This document shows, in pieces, positions 7,789 through 33,651 of a stretch of 64,000 nt of DNA. The stretch is from Seleniivibrio woodruffii (GTDB lineage Bacteria; Chrysiogenota; Deferribacteres; Deferribacterales; Geovibrionaceae), in the NCBI RefSeq assembly GCF_004339245.1, contig NZ_SMGG01000006.1, positions 62,001 through 126,000 of the forward strand, given 5' to 3'. The stretch's first letter is position 1. Every line of letters begins with the position of its first letter. Position numbers and translations under genes: made by a program. The notes below the pieces were generated by a model. The model was not told where the DNA came from, ran no database searches, and saw only the letters and a list, made by a program, of their open reading frames with translations.

Positions 7789-7848
7789 TGGACCTCTCGG
7801 AGATTGTGTATAAATCACGCTACATGAACAGCGGACAAAAAACAACGT

Positions 7849-7861
7849 TAATTATGTTAAT
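7849..7861 (-). promoter_or_regulatory. AT-rich 13-base motif upstream of the hypothetical gene
   Basis: The 13 bases ATTAACATAATTA (minus strand) lie about 60 bases before the start codon at 7788. The identical 13-mer occurs at 33272-33284, about 75 bases before the first gene of the caspase operon and in the same orientation. It could be a shared regulator site or a chance AT-rich match. Confidence 0.25.
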
Positions 7862-7881
7862 ATTTATCACAAAGTGAAATA

Positions 7882-8481
7882 TCATGTAACCACAACGCTC
7901 TCCACAGACACCGTAATGTCACCTATTCCGTTCAGTGCGTTTATGATATGTACGGTCTCAAAATCCGAAAGCATCCCGGGGGTTATTTTCATTTCGGTTA
8001 TAATGCCCGTGTCCAGCATCTGCTGACGCTTGGTTCCTTTCAGCAGACAGGCTTTCGGGGTCACATACACATTGCCCTTGTTAAGGACTATATTACTGAA
8101 CGTTGTATCCGTAACCTGACCGTTCACCACAAACAGCGGCTCCTCGTCCGGCGCAAATTTTCCGGCATACTTCTGAAACATCTCCCTGTTCTCAAACTTG
8201 TGAGGATAGCTCAGGCTGTCGTCCTCAATGAGCACCAGACGGTTTATCTTGCGCCTCACATATGGAAAAACCGCCGCCTCCGCCCTTATGTCGCTGTATG
8301 ACACCCTCAGTCTGTAAAGCCCGTCGGCAGGCAGCGAAACTCCCTCCAGAACCTCCTCAATACTCACCGGCCTCACCTTTGGAAAAAGTGCCTTAAAGGC
8401 CGCATCAACCCTGGCCTGATGATATCTCAGGTTAAAGATCCTCCCGCCGTCCAGTTTAATGGTTTCAAATAATAGGGACAT
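7882..8481 (-). CDS. pabC: aminodeoxychorismate lyase-like class IV aminotransferase PabC
   Basis: 199-residue fold-type IV PLP enzyme, predicted to convert aminodeoxychorismate to p-aminobenzoate and pyruvate for folate. The PLP lysine is probably in SYPHKFENR, and VTDTTFSNIVL with LLKGTKRQQML matches the family. The start at 8481 is chosen because GAGAAGG precedes it; a longer frame to 8520 lacks such a site. The gene begins inside the 3' end of pabB (17-base overlap), so the pair is translated together. Proteins of this size can also be D-amino-acid or branched-chain aminotransferases; the pabB neighbour argues for PabC. Confidence 0.88.
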   Translation of the reverse strand: MSLLFETIKLDGGRIFNLRYHQARVDAAFKALFPKVRPVSIEEVLEGVSLPADGLYRLRVSYSDIRAEAAVFPYVRRKINRLVLIEDDSLSYPHKFENREMFQKYAGKFAPDEEPLFVVNGQVTDTTFSNIVLNKGNVYVTPKACLLKGTKRQQMLDTGIITEMKITPGMLSDFETVHIINALNGIGDITVSVESVVVT

Positions 8482-9514
8482 AAACCTTCTCCAGAAGCTC
8501 GGCATATTCGTCCTGTGCACGACTGTAAACGGTTATGCCGCCGCCGCTGCGAAAGAACGTTCCGCCCTCTTTTTTTTCGATATATCTTATGATAACGCAG
8601 GTATCTATATTCTCTCCGTCATACACTCCGGCTATTCCGGTGTAAAACCCTCTGGGCGCACCCTCAGCCTGACGAATTATATCCAGTGTCATTCTTTTCG
8701 GCGCTCCGGAGACCGAACCCGCAGGCAGAAGCCCCAGAATGACCGAAGCCATATCCTTATCCTGTCTCAGCCTGCCCCGTATGTCCGTGCTGGTCTGCAC
8801 AATGGTCTTTTCGCCGTGGCGGATGTATGAAGGGTATCTGAACGAGGTCACCCGAACATCGTCCGCAACCGAGTTCAGGTCGTTTCTGAGCAGATCCACA
8901 ACAGTGATGTGCTCCGCCAGCTCCTTTTCGTCATCCATCAGCAGCCTTTCGCAGTCCGCCGTGGTCATCAGCCTCGTCCCCTTCATGGGGCTGGTGGTGA
9001 TGTATCCGCCGGATATCCTGGCAAAACTCTCCGGCGAAAAGAACACGAACTCATCGCCGTATTTCAGCTTATATTCCGCACTGCTCCCGGCGAATATCTC
9101 ATCAAAACTCAGATCAACGTCTATCTCCGTGGGAAAGGTGAGATTCAGCAGATAGCTGTCGCCGTCAGTCTGACGTTTCTGAACCATGTCAAACGATTTT
9201 CTATAACTATCAAAAGTTATAGGTCTTTTTGTGATTTCGGGAAGGCTGCGGCGGGTGTTTGTTCCTTGATAATTTGTGAGACCTCTGAAATCATAAAGGA
9301 TATCAGAGGAGGAACCCAGCTCTGAAAGGGGGTGCAGAACGAAACGGCTCAGTTCAAAATCCACAATGAACAGAAAGGGTTCCGAATTGCCGTATAGTCT
9401 GTTAAACTCCGATATGAACCTGTCAGCTTCCATGTCTCCCCGCTGAAATCTAATAAGGGCATAGTCTAACAGCTTGCAAAACCATGTCAAGTCCATTACG
9501 CCAATTTTTATCAT
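8465..9514 (-). CDS. pabB: aminodeoxychorismate synthase component I PabB
   Basis: 349-residue chorismate-binding enzyme that aminates chorismate to aminodeoxychorismate. It is of the short form lacking most of the N-terminal tryptophan-binding barrel. Family marks: SPMKGTR (active-site lysine), ELAEHITVVDLLRNDL, LLPAGSVSGAPKRMT and a final GGGITVYSRAQDEYAELLEK. No PabA glutaminase is in the window. The start is uncertain: ATG 9514 and ATG 9496 both lack a clear ribosome site. It heads a pabB-pabC pair and is divergent from the triple-binding-domain cyclase gene. Confidence 0.9.
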   Translation of the reverse strand: MIKIGVMDLTWFCKLLDYALIRFQRGDMEADRFISEFNRLYGNSEPFLFIVDFELSRFVLHPLSELGSSSDILYDFRGLTNYQGTNTRRSLPEITKRPITFDSYRKSFDMVQKRQTDGDSYLLNLTFPTEIDVDLSFDEIFAGSSAEYKLKYGDEFVFFSPESFARISGGYITTSPMKGTRLMTTADCERLLMDDEKELAEHITVVDLLRNDLNSVADDVRVTSFRYPSYIRHGEKTIVQTSTDIRGRLRQDKDMASVILGLLPAGSVSGAPKRMTLDIIRQAEGAPRGFYTGIAGVYDGENIDTCVIIRYIEKKEGGTFFRSGGGITVYSRAQDEYAELLEKVYVPII

Positions 9515-28782: not shown

Positions 28783-29523
28783 ATGGACAATGTTTCTTTT
28801 TTCACGGCGTTCATCGCCGGTGTACTTTCTTTTTTATCACCATGCGTTTTGCCGCTTCTGCCCGGCTATCTTTCCTTTATGTCGGGTGAATCCATCGAAA
28901 CCCTTACATCCGGCGACAAAAAATCGGCAAAGTTTAAAGTATTTCTCGGAGCGGTCTTTTTCGGACTTGGGTTCATGCTGGTGTTCGTTCTTCTGGGTGC
29001 CGGCGCAACCAAGATAGGTATGTTTCTTAAAGAATATAAGCTCATAATCGGCAGGGTTGCCGGAGTGGTCATCATTGTCCTCGGTCTGCACATGCTCGGA
29101 GTTCTTCGCATAAATAAGCTGATGATGCATAAAAAATGGAACTACAGTTCAAAAAGCGGCACTCCCTTCTTTGTGAACGCCTTTCTTCTGGGTGTGGCGT
29201 TCGTTTTCGGCTGGACACCCTGCATAGGCCCCATTCTGGCGGGCATCCTGTCTCTGGCGGCGGCAAAAGAGACCGTTTCCAGCGGGATACTCATGCTTGC
29301 GGTTTTCGGCTTTGGTCTGTGGATCCCTTTTCTGCTCTCCGCACTGGCGGTCGGCTTTGTGTTCTCAACAGTGCGCAAGGCGAGCAGAGTTGTCATGATA
29401 GTTGAAAAGGTCTCGGGCGTTCTGCTGATAATCATCGGTCTGCTCATGGCCACCGACAGCATGAACACCCTCAGCGTTTATCTTTTAAAGGTCTTCCCCT
29501 TCCTGCTGGAACTCAATTACTGA
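28783..29523 (+). CDS. ccdA: thiol-disulfide electron transporter CcdA
   Basis: 246 residues, six to seven membrane helices. The two conserved redox cysteines are Cys21 (LSFLSPCVLPLLPGY) and Cys147 (FGWTPCIGPILAGIL). CcdA carries reducing power across the membrane to keep apocytochrome CxxCH thiols reduced. It is divergent from ccmE over a 106-base AT-rich space and converges on the DUF4384 gene with an 11-base overlap. A thioredoxin-like partner (CcmG/ResA) is not next to it. Confidence 0.94.
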   Translation: MDNVSFFTAFIAGVLSFLSPCVLPLLPGYLSFMSGESIETLTSGDKKSAKFKVFLGAVFFGLGFMLVFVLLGAGATKIGMFLKEYKLIIGRVAGVVIIVLGLHMLGVLRINKLMMHKKWNYSSKSGTPFFVNAFLLGVAFVFGWTPCIGPILAGILSLAAAKETVSSGILMLAVFGFGLWIPFLLSALAVGFVFSTVRKASRVVMIVEKVSGVLLIIIGLLMATDSMNTLSVYLLKVFPFLLELNY

Positions 29524-30325
29524 TCTTATATGTAACGGTACTGTCCGTCCATTCCGACGGGTCAAGCCTGTTAAGCCTGCGGACAAGATCGTTCATCATC
29601 CCCGTTGAAGATGCGTCATAGGTTATGAACATCCCTTCCTGAAAGCCAAGCGTAAGCAGATCGTCCTTCCTTTTGGATGCAATTATCTTCACCCGCTCCT
29701 CGGCGAACTTCCCCTTGAAGCCCGGCAGAAGCTGTGCAGTCAGAACTATTTTAGAATCCTTGTCGGGATAAACGTAGGTCTTTCCCTTTTCTGCAAAATT
29801 GTTCCGCTGAACGCTGTTGGGCAGAAGCAGTGTAACCGAACCGTCGGCGGCTATTGAGAACAGATAGACGTAGGCGTCCTCCGTCACTTTATAGCTCATG
29901 GAGATTATGTCGCCCGCTTTCAGCTCGCTTTTAGACAGAGCCAGATCGACGCTGAAACCGCCTGTTCTCTCCGGATGATACGGCTCCACCACCGCTTTTA
30001 TCTTAACCACGTATTCCCTGTCCGTTCCGGCGGCAAACCCTTTCGAGAGAATGTCGTATTTTATTATCCTGCCCTTGACCGCAGTGTATATCAGGTCTTC
30101 CGCCAGCTGGCTGTTAAGCACCAGACTTCTTGTCTTTATGAAAATCCCCGTTGCCGTCTCCAGAGCGTTCCTCTGTGCATCGTTCAGCGCACGGGTGTAC
30201 GTCTCCTTTATAGTATCGGCATCACCCATAACGGATGTACCCTCCGACTCCACCGTGATGGGGGGCTCTGCGGCAAAAGCGCCCGCAGAAATAAGAAGCA
30301 GAAGGGCTATCAGTATCGTCTTCAT
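29513..30325 (-). CDS. exported DUF4384 domain protein of the caspase operon
   Basis: 270 residues with a signal peptide (1-18, cleavage near AFAAE). The first part (about 30-115) resembles the small alpha/beta domain of FlgT_N/LPP20-type envelope proteins (YTRALNDAQRNALETATG, then a hydrophobic strand EYVVKIKAVVEPY). The middle (about 125-215) is a DUF4384 domain (AYVYLFSIAADGSVTLLLPN). Such domains are often found with caspase-like proteins. It is the third gene of the operon; its ATG overlaps the stop of the caspase gene (TGATG). The function is unknown. Confidence 0.75.
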   Translation of the reverse strand: MKTILIALLLLISAGAFAAEPPITVESEGTSVMGDADTIKETYTRALNDAQRNALETATGIFIKTRSLVLNSQLAEDLIYTAVKGRIIKYDILSKGFAAGTDREYVVKIKAVVEPYHPERTGGFSVDLALSKSELKAGDIISMSYKVTEDAYVYLFSIAADGSVTLLLPNSVQRNNFAEKGKTYVYPDKDSKIVLTAQLLPGFKGKFAEERVKIIASKRKDDLLTLGFQEGMFITYDASSTGMMNDLVRRLNRLDPSEWTDSTVTYKISN

Positions 30326-32376
30326 CAGTAAAGCTCACCGAAACTCTTGTCGTCTATCCTGCCTTTCAGAAAAGCGTCCATCAGCTTTGATTTCACAGGT
30401 TTTTTAAGCTCTTCAAGTCCTTTAGTAAGCTGTGTCGAGTTTATCAGACCCTTTTCGAACAGCCCTTTCAGCTTGTTCCGCCCTGTCTCCTCGTCTATCA
30501 GCCTGTACTGTTCCCAGTTGCGGCCGACGGTGAAATCGCCTGAGCCGACAACCTGCGGATCCTGCTCCTGACCTTTCAGCCTGAATGCTGTCTTGGCAAC
30601 GTTGCTCTTAATATAGTCCGCTATATCGTTTATGGTCACCCAGACACCTTTTCCCGCCTTGCCTCTCAGTCCCTCCTTAAAGAAGTGACTGAATATACCC
30701 GACCTGTACTCGCTGTCGTCCTCCCATGACTGCTGGTTTGCGGCGGACGAAGTTATTATCACCCTGCCGGAACCTGTTGTCCTGAAAAGATCGGGTGCGG
30801 CCATCATTCCCACTATGGGTTTTCCGCCCTTGGCTGTGATGGATTTTCCGCTTCCTGTGAAACAGGCATCCAGAGCCACCATGACCCCTTTTGCGTTGGA
30901 AGTGTCCACCATGTTTTCAAGATAGCTTATTTTAACCGCTGTATCCGCCAGCGAATCGGGATCGCTTATCACTGCGTCGTAGGGGACTATAACGGCATCT
31001 GTGACCTTGTCACCGGAGGTGATGGGTGCACCATGCCCTGAAAAATATACATATATATATCCGTCCCACGTCCTTATCTTGCGGATTGCGGCGACCATGC
31101 TGTTTCTGGTTGCATTCTCATTCAGCAGAAGGACTGTGTTCTCCTTGGGTATACCGCCGTATCTTCTGTCGGTGAGGAGGTTATAAACGTCCTGCGCATC
31201 ATTCGATGCGTATTTCAACCCCGGTATGTCCTTTCTGCCGCCGTAGTCTATTCCTATCACGACGGCATAGGCATCCTCCCTGAGCGGAGGCAGGTTCTCA
31301 TCAGTTTCGGAAGCTGTTTTCTCCGGTTCTCTCTGAGCAGCAGCCTGCTGAACCGGCGGAGCTTTGGGATCAGCCGCCGAAGCCAGCACAACATCAAAAT
31401 AGCTCGGTCTGTTGTCTCTTATGACATATAAGGTCAGCTTTGACTGAGGAGCCTGTGAGTTTATAAAGTTTACGAAAGCTTCCGGCGAGGATACAAGGGT
31501 TCCGCCCGCATCGGCTATGATATCGCCCACATGCAGTCCCGCTCTTTCCGCAGGGCTGGACGGTGCCACTCCCACAACCTCCACTCCGGCAAGCCCCATT
31601 CTGGTTCTGCCCAGCATGGCTGTATACCTTGCCACTGCCGTCTGCCTTTCTGTGCTTATGGCCTGAATGTTTACACCCAGATATCCGCCGCCGCCGACTT
31701 TAGCCGTAACCTGCTGAACGACAGCAGCCTGCTGCTGTGCGTATTGGGGTCTTGAGGGAGCCGTCTGTTTTTTCATGTTCGATGCATATGTCTGAAGCTC
31801 TCCCGAAAGGGATATATCTTCGTTTATTTTCCGGAAACACTCCGCCATAGCAGCGGAAAGCACTTCTGCTTTGAGGGTTTCAACGGGTATCACTGGCGAC
31901 ACTACCGCCCTGCTCTCCTTAACGCTTCTGGCGCTGGTCTCCCATACCGTCATTCTGTTCCTGTCGGTGATAACCGCCTTAACGCCGAGATTCAGCCGGA
32001 ATTTAAGTCCGAATCCCGCCGCAACCTGAACACCTTCATAGGAGTAATCCTGAATATCGGTGGATATCAGAACGTCCACACTTTCGGGAAAACTGCCCGC
32101 GGGAACCACAACGGCCGATGAGAAAGCATAGGGATAGTATTTTTTCGCCATGCTCCTTATCTGTTTTCCGGCAGGGATAGTCTCTGTGTAGCTTCCGCTG
32201 ACTTTGGTCTTAACCATGTTTTCATCCGGCAGAACTATTCCCGCCCGCAGGTTCACCGCCGCAACCCTGTCCGGAGATACGGCTGTGTTTTCGACCATGG
32301 GGATGTCAGAACGGGTTGCGCACCCGAATGTGAGCATCATCAATATTGCCATTGCAAAAAAACTGAATTTTTTCAT
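30325..32376 (-). CDS. lipoprotein with PDZ and caspase (peptidase C14) domains
   Basis: 683 residues. The lipobox FGCATRS (Cys19) predicts a lipid anchor. Residues 25-200 form an envelope domain similar in outline to the neighbouring lipoprotein. A PDZ domain (about 230-330, GVAPSSPAERAGLHVGD) precedes a Pro/Ala-rich linker and a caspase domain (about 365-600) with the catalytic dyad His448 (YFSGHGAP) and Cys505 (ALDACFTGSG). The last 50 residues hold two half-repeats (FxxGxI type) ending in FGELY, shared with the upstream gene's product. It is probably an active extracytoplasmic cysteine peptidase. It is the middle gene of a three-gene operon with TGATG junctions on both sides. Confidence 0.88.
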   Translation of the reverse strand: MKKFSFFAMAILMMLTFGCATRSDIPMVENTAVSPDRVAAVNLRAGIVLPDENMVKTKVSGSYTETIPAGKQIRSMAKKYYPYAFSSAVVVPAGSFPESVDVLISTDIQDYSYEGVQVAAGFGLKFRLNLGVKAVITDRNRMTVWETSARSVKESRAVVSPVIPVETLKAEVLSAAMAECFRKINEDISLSGELQTYASNMKKQTAPSRPQYAQQQAAVVQQVTAKVGGGGYLGVNIQAISTERQTAVARYTAMLGRTRMGLAGVEVVGVAPSSPAERAGLHVGDIIADAGGTLVSSPEAFVNFINSQAPQSKLTLYVIRDNRPSYFDVVLASAADPKAPPVQQAAAQREPEKTASETDENLPPLREDAYAVVIGIDYGGRKDIPGLKYASNDAQDVYNLLTDRRYGGIPKENTVLLLNENATRNSMVAAIRKIRTWDGYIYVYFSGHGAPITSGDKVTDAVIVPYDAVISDPDSLADTAVKISYLENMVDTSNAKGVMVALDACFTGSGKSITAKGGKPIVGMMAAPDLFRTTGSGRVIITSSAANQQSWEDDSEYRSGIFSHFFKEGLRGKAGKGVWVTINDIADYIKSNVAKTAFRLKGQEQDPQVVGSGDFTVGRNWEQYRLIDEETGRNKLKGLFEKGLINSTQLTKGLEELKKPVKSKLMDAFLKGRIDDKSFGELY

Positions 32377-33197
32377 CAGTAAAGCTCCCCGAATTTAGTA
32401 GGGTCAATGTTTCCATTAAGGAAGGAGTCCAGAAGTTTGGATCTTTCCCCTCCGAGTTCATCTATGGCTCTTCTCAGCTGAGCGGCATCTATAGCCCCGC
32501 TCTCAAAGGCGGCTCTCAGCCTGTCCTTGTCCGTTACACCTTCCGGCGCAAACTTCGGTGCGGGCTGAGGTGAGGCGGACTGTGCCCCGCTTAGATAGCT
32601 GTTAAGAGCGTATGAACCCGTCATCCCGTTGAACCCTTTAGCCAGAGCATCCGCTGCGGCCTTGTATATCTGCCTGTTCCATATCTCGCTCATTCCAGAC
32701 GAATCCATGCAGTTCCCCTCAATAACGGGAACAGAGGAAACGGTGTCCGACCTGTATATCTCCCTTCCGCTGTTGTCCATGAAATGGATGCGGAGGTTAA
32801 TTTTCGGAGCCACACCGCAGGTGCTGAAACCTCTTACGGTGGTGTTGAAATCATAATCCTGAAGCTCCGGAGAGATTATCAGACCTCTATCGGCAGATGG
32901 TGTCTGAACCTCTGCTGTCTCCGCAAAGAACAGAGGCATGGTGTCTTTTGCGGCCTTGTTTATCTGTTGTGTCATGGGGGTTATGATGAGCTGTTCTATA
33001 CCGGAGCCGTTGTTGAGAACTTTCTGCGAAGGTACTTTGGCATCAATAGGCAGAAGAGACGCCTTTATGCCGAGTTTCTGGGCGGGATAGACCGCCGGCA
33101 GCTCCGAGACAGGGATATCCTGATACGGAACTTCATATTTAACCGTACATGCGGCAGCGGTCAGAGAAATCAGGATCAGAAGGACAAACTTCACCAT
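32376..33197 (-). CDS. lipoprotein with C-terminal FGELY module
   Basis: 273 residues. The lipobox TAAACTVKY (Cys17) predicts a lipoprotein. Residues 35-200 hold an envelope domain with LIISPELQDYDFN, paralleling DVLISTDIQDYSYE in the caspase lipoprotein. A short linker leads to about 50 residues of tandem FxxGxID half-repeats, ending in FGELY like the caspase protein. I do not recognise the family beyond a SHOCT-like look of the tail. AAGGTGGAG precedes the ATG. It is the first gene of the operon; its final codons include the ribosome site of the caspase gene. Confidence 0.72.
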   Translation of the reverse strand: MVKFVLLILISLTAAACTVKYEVPYQDIPVSELPAVYPAQKLGIKASLLPIDAKVPSQKVLNNGSGIEQLIITPMTQQINKAAKDTMPLFFAETAEVQTPSADRGLIISPELQDYDFNTTVRGFSTCGVAPKINLRIHFMDNSGREIYRSDTVSSVPVIEGNCMDSSGMSEIWNRQIYKAAADALAKGFNGMTGSYALNSYLSGAQSASPQPAPKFAPEGVTDKDRLRAAFESGAIDAAQLRRAIDELGGERSKLLDSFLNGNIDPTKFGELY

Positions 33198-33271
33198 TGC
33201 TCCACCTTAAATTACTACACTTATCAAATAATACCGCTGTCAACGCCTGAAATAAAGCGTTAATCGCAAAG

Positions 33272-33284
33272 TAATTATGTTAAT
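33272..33284 (-). promoter_or_regulatory. 13-base motif upstream of the caspase operon
   Basis: The same 13 bases as at 7849-7861, same orientation relative to the gene, about 75 bases before the start at 33197. A shared regulator is possible, unproven. Confidence 0.25.
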
Positions 33285-33352
33285 TTGACCTGTCAGCGTA
33301 ATTATTTATGGCTACACGCTTTTTCAATCAATAGCTCAAAACGGCATAAACA

Positions 33353-33413
33353 GTCATTCTGAGTGTAACGAAGAATCTCTGCGCCTGAGACTCTTCACTT
33401 CGTTCAGAGTGAC
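33353..33413. repeat. imperfect inverted repeat, GTCATTCTGA family
   Basis: GTCATTCTGA (33353-33362) starts an arm that pairs imperfectly with an arm ending in TCAGAGTGAC (33404-33413). Both contain AACGAAG. Related arms occur at 57005-57072. Similar arms are common between genes in many bacteria. It lies in the 453-base gap between the caspase operon and pilC. Confidence 0.65.
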
Positions 33414-33458
33414 GAAGGCTGTATGAGTCCACTTTCATCTAATTGTCGAATTGGGAGG

Positions 33459-33651
33459 AGCTGATGAAGTATTGCGCCGTATATAACCGCCAAATTTCTG
33501 CTTAGAACCGATTCGTCCGACATCAGCCATCGGCGGTTAGATGCAAGCAGTACAAGGAAGGTTTGACGAGAGGGCTGCGAGCATACACGCCGGTATGTGA
33601 GCAGTTCCGAGGAGAAGCTGACGAAGTAATGCGCCGTATATAACCGCCGAT
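33459..33651. repeat. structured intergenic element with duplicated end, after pilC
   Basis: An 11-base perfect inverted repeat, ATCGGCGGTTA (33529-33539) and TAACCGCCGAT (33641-33651), encloses 101 bases. Inside is a nested hairpin: CTGC/GCAG (33575-33578, 33601-33604) and CATAC/GTATG (33582-33586, 33593-33597). The last 33 bases before the outer arm end (33616-33648) recur at 33459-33491 with 31 of 33 identities, as if a second, truncated copy lay upstream. The outer right arm ends in the pilC stop codon. It could be a small non-autonomous mobile element or a structured 3' end of the pilBC mRNA. Confidence 0.6.

Follow-up and report, generated by a model that had tools for sequence, protein, structure and literature searches.

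Two adjacent genes of Seleniivibrio woodruffii encode lipoproteins that end in the same module of about 50 residues, only one of the two having a protease domain, and this raises the question of what the shared module does and how both proteins came to possess it. The window analyzed here is a 64,000-nt stretch of contig NZ_SMGG01000006.1, and the locus occupies its positions 29513–33197 on the minus strand, to which all features of the three proteins listed below belong. It comprises a lipoprotein gene (32376–33197, 273 aa), which we read as a caspase-less paralogue of the adjoining caspase, the gene of a lipid-anchored PDZ-caspase lipoprotein (30325–32376, 683 aa), and the gene of an exported DUF4384 protein (29513–30325, 270 aa), a recurrent partner of exported caspases. 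The preliminary description had proposed such a three-gene unit, and we confirm it: both junctions are TGATG start/stop overlaps, and hence the genes almost surely form a single transcript with coupled translation. A scan for promoter and terminator conservation at the operon yielded nothing better than shuffles.

The caspase starts with an N-terminal domain (residues 19–206, 31759–32322), a distant paralogue of the N-terminal domain of the lipoprotein; in the caspase, AlphaFold2 models this domain poorly, with its fold at low confidence. It is followed by a DegP/HtrA-type PDZ domain (residues ~228–335, 31372–31695; Pfam PDZ_2, 3.4e-11 at 232–329, with DegP-like proteases as the best solved matches), a Peptidase C14 domain (residues 367–620, 30517–31278; Pfam Peptidase_C14, 4.2e-13 at 370–610, 50 bits vs. 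the curated cut-off of 21.4), and the tail (residues 633–683, 30328–30480). The nearest solved folds to the caspase model are MALT1 and metacaspases with Z about 21 (VIA Z of 21.7 for MALT1 and 21.4 for metacaspase 4), this search of the full model probing mainly residues 363–620 and not the fold of the N-terminal domain. The catalytic dyad, described earlier as intact, is indeed so, as His448 (codon at 31033–31035, motif FSGHGAP) and Cys505 (codon at 30862–30864, motif ALDACFTG) are invariant in the alignment of 23 relatives. Also invariant in these relatives are Asp393 and Asp503, the latter two residues before the catalytic cysteine, both aligned with acidic residues of the yeast metacaspase; this match suggests that they are the S1-pocket acids, and the enzyme is predicted to cleave after Arg or Lys. 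The C14 fold, the His–Cys dyad, and the S1 acids for a basic P1 residue are shared with bacterial orthocaspases and metacaspases, which are likewise multidomain, with some of them exported and with inactive variants known (surveys PMC3501461, PMC6426788). Compared to these orthocaspases, the Seleniivibrio caspase is lipid-anchored and PDZ-fused and has a C-terminal double half-repeat of which the survey passages and searches considered make no mention, while its inactive partner has the whole caspase domain deleted and is encoded in the adjoining gene.

The module of approximately 50 residues common to the ends of both lipoproteins (in the lipoprotein, residues 224–273, 32379–32528) was already claimed from the sequence alone, together with its division into two related half-repeats ending in FGELY, and both claims hold. 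The local score of the two tails is 115, compared to a mean of 21.5, standard deviation of 4.3, and maximum of 47 in 10,000 shuffles, and 22 invariant columns are common to both tails across six Seleniivibrio sequences. The profile score of half A against half B is 18.5, a value reached by none of 200 column shuffles. When the tail is used as a query within its own genome, the convincing matches are the lipoprotein and caspase genes only. AlphaFold2 models the caspase tail confidently (pLDDT about 81–93) as a pair of short helical hairpins, and the lipoprotein tail has the same four helices.

Each half of the tail seems to resemble SHOCT (PF09851, PMC3581485), likewise a short C-terminal helical module, with the F/Y-x-x-G-x-I/L core; the hhalign scores are 18.7 and 20.7, and each is reached by one of 200 column shuffles. 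Still, the Pfam search gave no SHOCT match in either tail at the curated cut-off of 27 bits, and both tails are absent among the SHOCT matches of the genome at E ≤ 1. In contrast to SHOCT, the tail consists of two fused half-repeats and is confined here to exported caspases and the Seleniivibrio lipoprotein. The assignment to ordinary SHOCT domains was set aside, the tail being under the Pfam cut-off, and the tail seems to be SHOCT-like, not a SHOCT member. The idea that the FGELY ending is a PDZ ligand was dropped, as the same ending is present on WD40 and TPR carriers without PDZ. A search of the open-licence literature found no paper naming a caspase with the FGELY tail, nor the three-gene operon, and a C-terminal module on a rare exported orthocaspase subfamily is apparently undescribed so far.

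The tail had been supposed to be specific to the lipoprotein–caspase pair, and this did not survive the comparison with other genomes. The caspase-plus-tail region was scanned against about 85,000 species; about 18 loci match the whole query at an identity of at least 56%, followed by a sharp break, as the next ones have at most 36% identity and nearly all of these cover the caspase domain only. The caspase with the tail is found in metagenome-assembled genomes of Nitrospirota, Nitrospinota, and “Deltaproteobacteria” and in Seleniivibrio, with a divergent branch in KSB3, and is rare, being present in about eight of 396 Nitrospirota genomes and in two of 395 from the phylum to which L143, a locus considered below, belongs. 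In all 37 proteins counted the tail is at the C-terminus; 34 of them have the caspase fold, and three are Seleniivibrio lipoproteins (that of the window and two orthologues). The N-termini preceding the caspase and tail vary and include S41/CtpB with PDZ, PDZ, WD40, TPR, ankyrin/TPR, and lipoprotein domains, and the dyad is intact in 17 of the 17 tail caspases checked by pattern. Thus, the tail belongs to exported caspases of a rare and scattered family, whose C-termini it invariably forms and whose N-terminal domains vary. Since its carriers are mostly caspases in other phyla, and many genomes hold one tail protein only, a private docking tag of the pair is rejected, and the basic role of the tail cannot need the lipoprotein.

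In KSB3 (to which G286 seems to belong, L124:7058–14198), two adjacent tail-bearing caspases lack both catalytic residues and are followed by a DUF4384 protein and then by an active caspase with NHL repeats, and this is a second case of the tail together with an inactive partner. Other loci of the family have further features. At L136:4600–6957, an exported S41 (CtpB-like) tail-specific protease, PDZ, caspase, and tail are joined in one chain, which hence contains two different proteases. Tandem arrays of up to three caspase-plus-tail genes with differing N-terminal domains, resembling a set of exchangeable sensors, are observed at L139:1833–6993 and in L140 and L141 (contig SCQE01000051). In Nitrospirota, an exported transglutaminase-like gene repeatedly follows the caspase-plus-tail gene (L138:6967–8580 and its homologues in L137, L146, and L150). 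Moreover, two near-identical exported serpin genes (L072:12–1244 and 7833–9065, Pfam 1e-125) lie in one cluster with a DUF4384 gene and the genes of several exported caspases in a bacterium from the same order as the window (G012); these serpins and the adjoining caspases could be inhibitor–protease pairs.

The DUF4384 domain of the third protein (residues 135–219, 29669–29923) is a Pfam match (PF14326, 4.2e-20, 72.1 bits vs. the curated cut-off of 27). Its gene immediately follows that of the tail caspase in Seleniivibrio, L143, L144, L147, L148, L149, and L249, and in G293 it begins 17 bases after the tail caspase. At E below 1e-130, DUF4384 orthologues occur in 11 of the 12 genomes outside KSB3 that have the tail and in neither of the two Seleniivibrio congeners without the operon. 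The DUF4384 gene is equally common beside tail-less caspases, being adjacent at 18 of 54 loci. In cyanobacterial orthocaspases, DUF4384 is known as a fused domain (PMC8283722, PMC6426788), and one survey of 473 proteins recorded it 23 times (PMC8283722). Caspase and DUF4384 are linked in these fusions as in the Seleniivibrio operon, where, by contrast, the two are encoded by separate genes with coupled translation and form an extracytoplasmic pair. From the fusions and the neighborhoods of tail-less caspases, caspase–DUF4384 is the older, general pair, to which the tail and the lipoprotein are additions. The expected recurrence of the lipoprotein–caspase–DUF4384 order is only partly observed: the order does recur, but in three Seleniivibrio genomes only, and the recurrent pair is caspase–DUF4384.

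For the lipoprotein, Pfam and NCBIfam searches gave no match. In its AlphaFold2 model (pLDDT 76.8 overall), the N-terminal domain (residues 17–205, 32583–33149) has a predicted fold that seems similar to those of DUF330/PqiC, LptE, PelC, and CsgG: the Foldseek match of the predicted domain is 2iqi (E 5.9e-6), and the VIA Z values lie at 9–11 over 120–160 residues, with 11.2 for 2iqi, 10.3 for 7rxu, and 9.9 for CsgG. Several of PqiC, LptE, PelC, and CsgG assemble into rings or complexes at the outer membrane; the Seleniivibrio lipoprotein differs from all of them in being without a Pfam match and joined to a caspase-type tail. The parallel noted earlier between its N-terminal domain and that of the caspase proved to be real. 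The two domains align with an hhalign E of 3.4e-5 (0.4 in direct BLAST), and both are similar to the corresponding domain of the L143 caspase, the lipoprotein with 22% identity over 211 residues (E 5e-18) and the Seleniivibrio caspase with E 6e-11. These domains were compared as fragments; the whole-protein MAFFT alignment of the lipoprotein and the caspase misplaces them.

In the tree the Seleniivibrio caspase is sister to L143 (support 99/97), where one gene, reading through only across a frameshift in the metagenome assembly, encodes a complete lipoprotein-type N-terminal domain, the caspase, and the tail, and is followed by DUF4384. As both N-terminal domains match that of L143, both proteins are most simply derived from an L143-like gene, and the lipoprotein is best read from these similarities as a caspase-less paralogue of the adjoining caspase. 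The most economical history is a duplication of an L143-like gene, after which one copy lost the caspase domain and the other gained PDZ, the direction of the loss following from parsimony. The lipoprotein is present in three of five sampled Seleniivibrio genomes, the orthologues in the two others being 58% identical, and none was found outside the genus in 60 relatives searched. In the remaining two genomes of the genus, the site is empty: pilC and ccdA lie side by side, and neither site contains remnants of the operon. This agrees with the suggestion that the three genes are gained or lost as one, and the operon is a clean presence/absence cassette within the genus. A recent foreign import was rejected on composition, as neither GC nor GC3 deviates. 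Upstream of the operon, the non-coding region at 33197–33650 of the window contains two repeats, a direct one of 47 nt (85%) and an inverted one of 14 nt, along with a TCATTCTGAGTGTAACGAAGAATCT-type sequence, and similar TCATTGCGAGGAGCG-type stretches are found where G001 and G002 have the empty site; these may be mobile repeats tied to the gain or loss of the cassette.

A comparison of the two nearest relatives gives 96% identity and a dN/dS of 0.022 for the lipoprotein tail, compared to 72% and 0.117 for the N-terminal domain. Being kept this strictly in a protein that has no caspase domain, the tail must serve some function in its own right and work without a caspase in the same chain. The reading that we prefer, giving it a probability of about 0.45, is that the locus encodes an envelope orthocaspase complex, in which the caspase and its caspase-less partner would associate via the tails. 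Judging by the export signals and lipobox, both lipoproteins would be held in the envelope, probably at the outer membrane, facing the periplasm; there is no Asp after the lipobox cysteine, which by the E. coli rule favors the outer membrane. The tail, a double helical hairpin, would mediate self- and hetero-association. Caspases become active by being brought together, and the lipoprotein may act as a non-catalytic partner, either a scaffold or a competitor, setting when the caspase domains meet and activate. The PDZ domain could supply the signal, e.g., misfolded or unassembled envelope proteins, and the active caspase would cleave after Arg or Lys. The DUF4384 protein, the recurrent caspase partner, is translated together with both lipoproteins.

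The earlier proposal of a dimerization or docking module is thus retained as the best guess, not as an exclusive tag of the pair and on a new basis, since the paralogue without the protease domain kept the tail almost unchanged. The modeled lipoprotein fold, if it forms oligomers as several proteins of similar fold do, counts for the association. On the other hand, many genomes have a single tail protein, hence pairing is not general, and this counts against it. Moreover, in the single published test a SHOCT domain failed to oligomerise (PMC3581485), which argues against simple tail–tail pairing and makes a heterotypic contact as likely. The broader statement, that in bacteria a dedicated paralogue without the protease domain regulates an envelope caspase via a shared C-terminal association module, we regard as doubtful at present.

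Several explanations of the same data do without mutual binding of the tails. The tail could be intramolecular, capping or steadying its own caspase domain, with the lipoprotein tail acting there in trans as an inhibitor or a chaperone. Its position directly after the p10-like end in every caspase, whatever the N-terminus, and its confident modeling together with the caspase domain agree with this; given that the same DUF4384 partner also accompanies caspases without a tail, so that the caspase domain folds without it, we consider such a role rather unlikely. A tag that localizes or recruits its carriers to a third component, be it the cell wall, a membrane protein, or the DUF4384 protein, would gather them as well, and could account for the strict C-terminal position, a terminal FGELY that is strongly conserved among carriers with different N-termini, and the presence of a DUF4384 orthologue in almost all genomes with the tail. 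However, the tail has no transmembrane helix or known sorting motif, and the DUF4384 protein also partners tail-less caspases and hence is no obvious tail receptor, which makes this explanation unlikely.

The tail-mediated complex has also to be compared with readings of the operon as a whole. An anti-phage or regulated-death module is very unlikely, as all parts have export signals, no defence genes surround the operon, and the PADLOC caspase model, which does match the caspase domain, aligns as a generic one only (residues 369–517 vs. 3–130 of 453), short of a full-length match; the patchy distribution in the genus and the combination of modular variable N-termini with a fixed effector are what such a module would display. 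Finally, having lost the caspase domain and being present in only three genomes of the genus, the lipoprotein might be seen as a decaying remnant of a caspase gene without function. This is highly improbable, the frames being intact and overlapping in three species and under strong purifying selection, strongest on the tail; the low dN/dS already largely refutes it.

An inactive partner of a caspase has a precedent in c-FLIP, the partner of caspase-8, which keeps a pseudo-caspase domain, and 3h11, among the fold matches of the caspase model, is presumably the c-FLIP/caspase-8 complex. In Seleniivibrio a non-catalytic paralogue likewise stands beside a caspase, but it has no caspase domain, and regulation is here only proposed. 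The exported caspase and its sister lipoprotein suggest a bacterial enzyme with its own non-catalytic partner. Little is known of what caspases do in bacteria, and exported ones have hardly been studied; the Seleniivibrio cassette offers a compact testable case with one enzyme, one natural caspase-less partner, and one 50-residue module amenable to deletion or exchange, and strains that have the cassette are closely related to others that lack it. Its tail family shows a fixed protease-plus-tail cassette behind many sensor-like domains in the bacterial envelope. If the proposed reading is true, the locus would represent an independently reached bacterial counterpart to the control of caspases through an inactive partner, and its tail family a modular periplasmic system plugging many sensors into one protease output.
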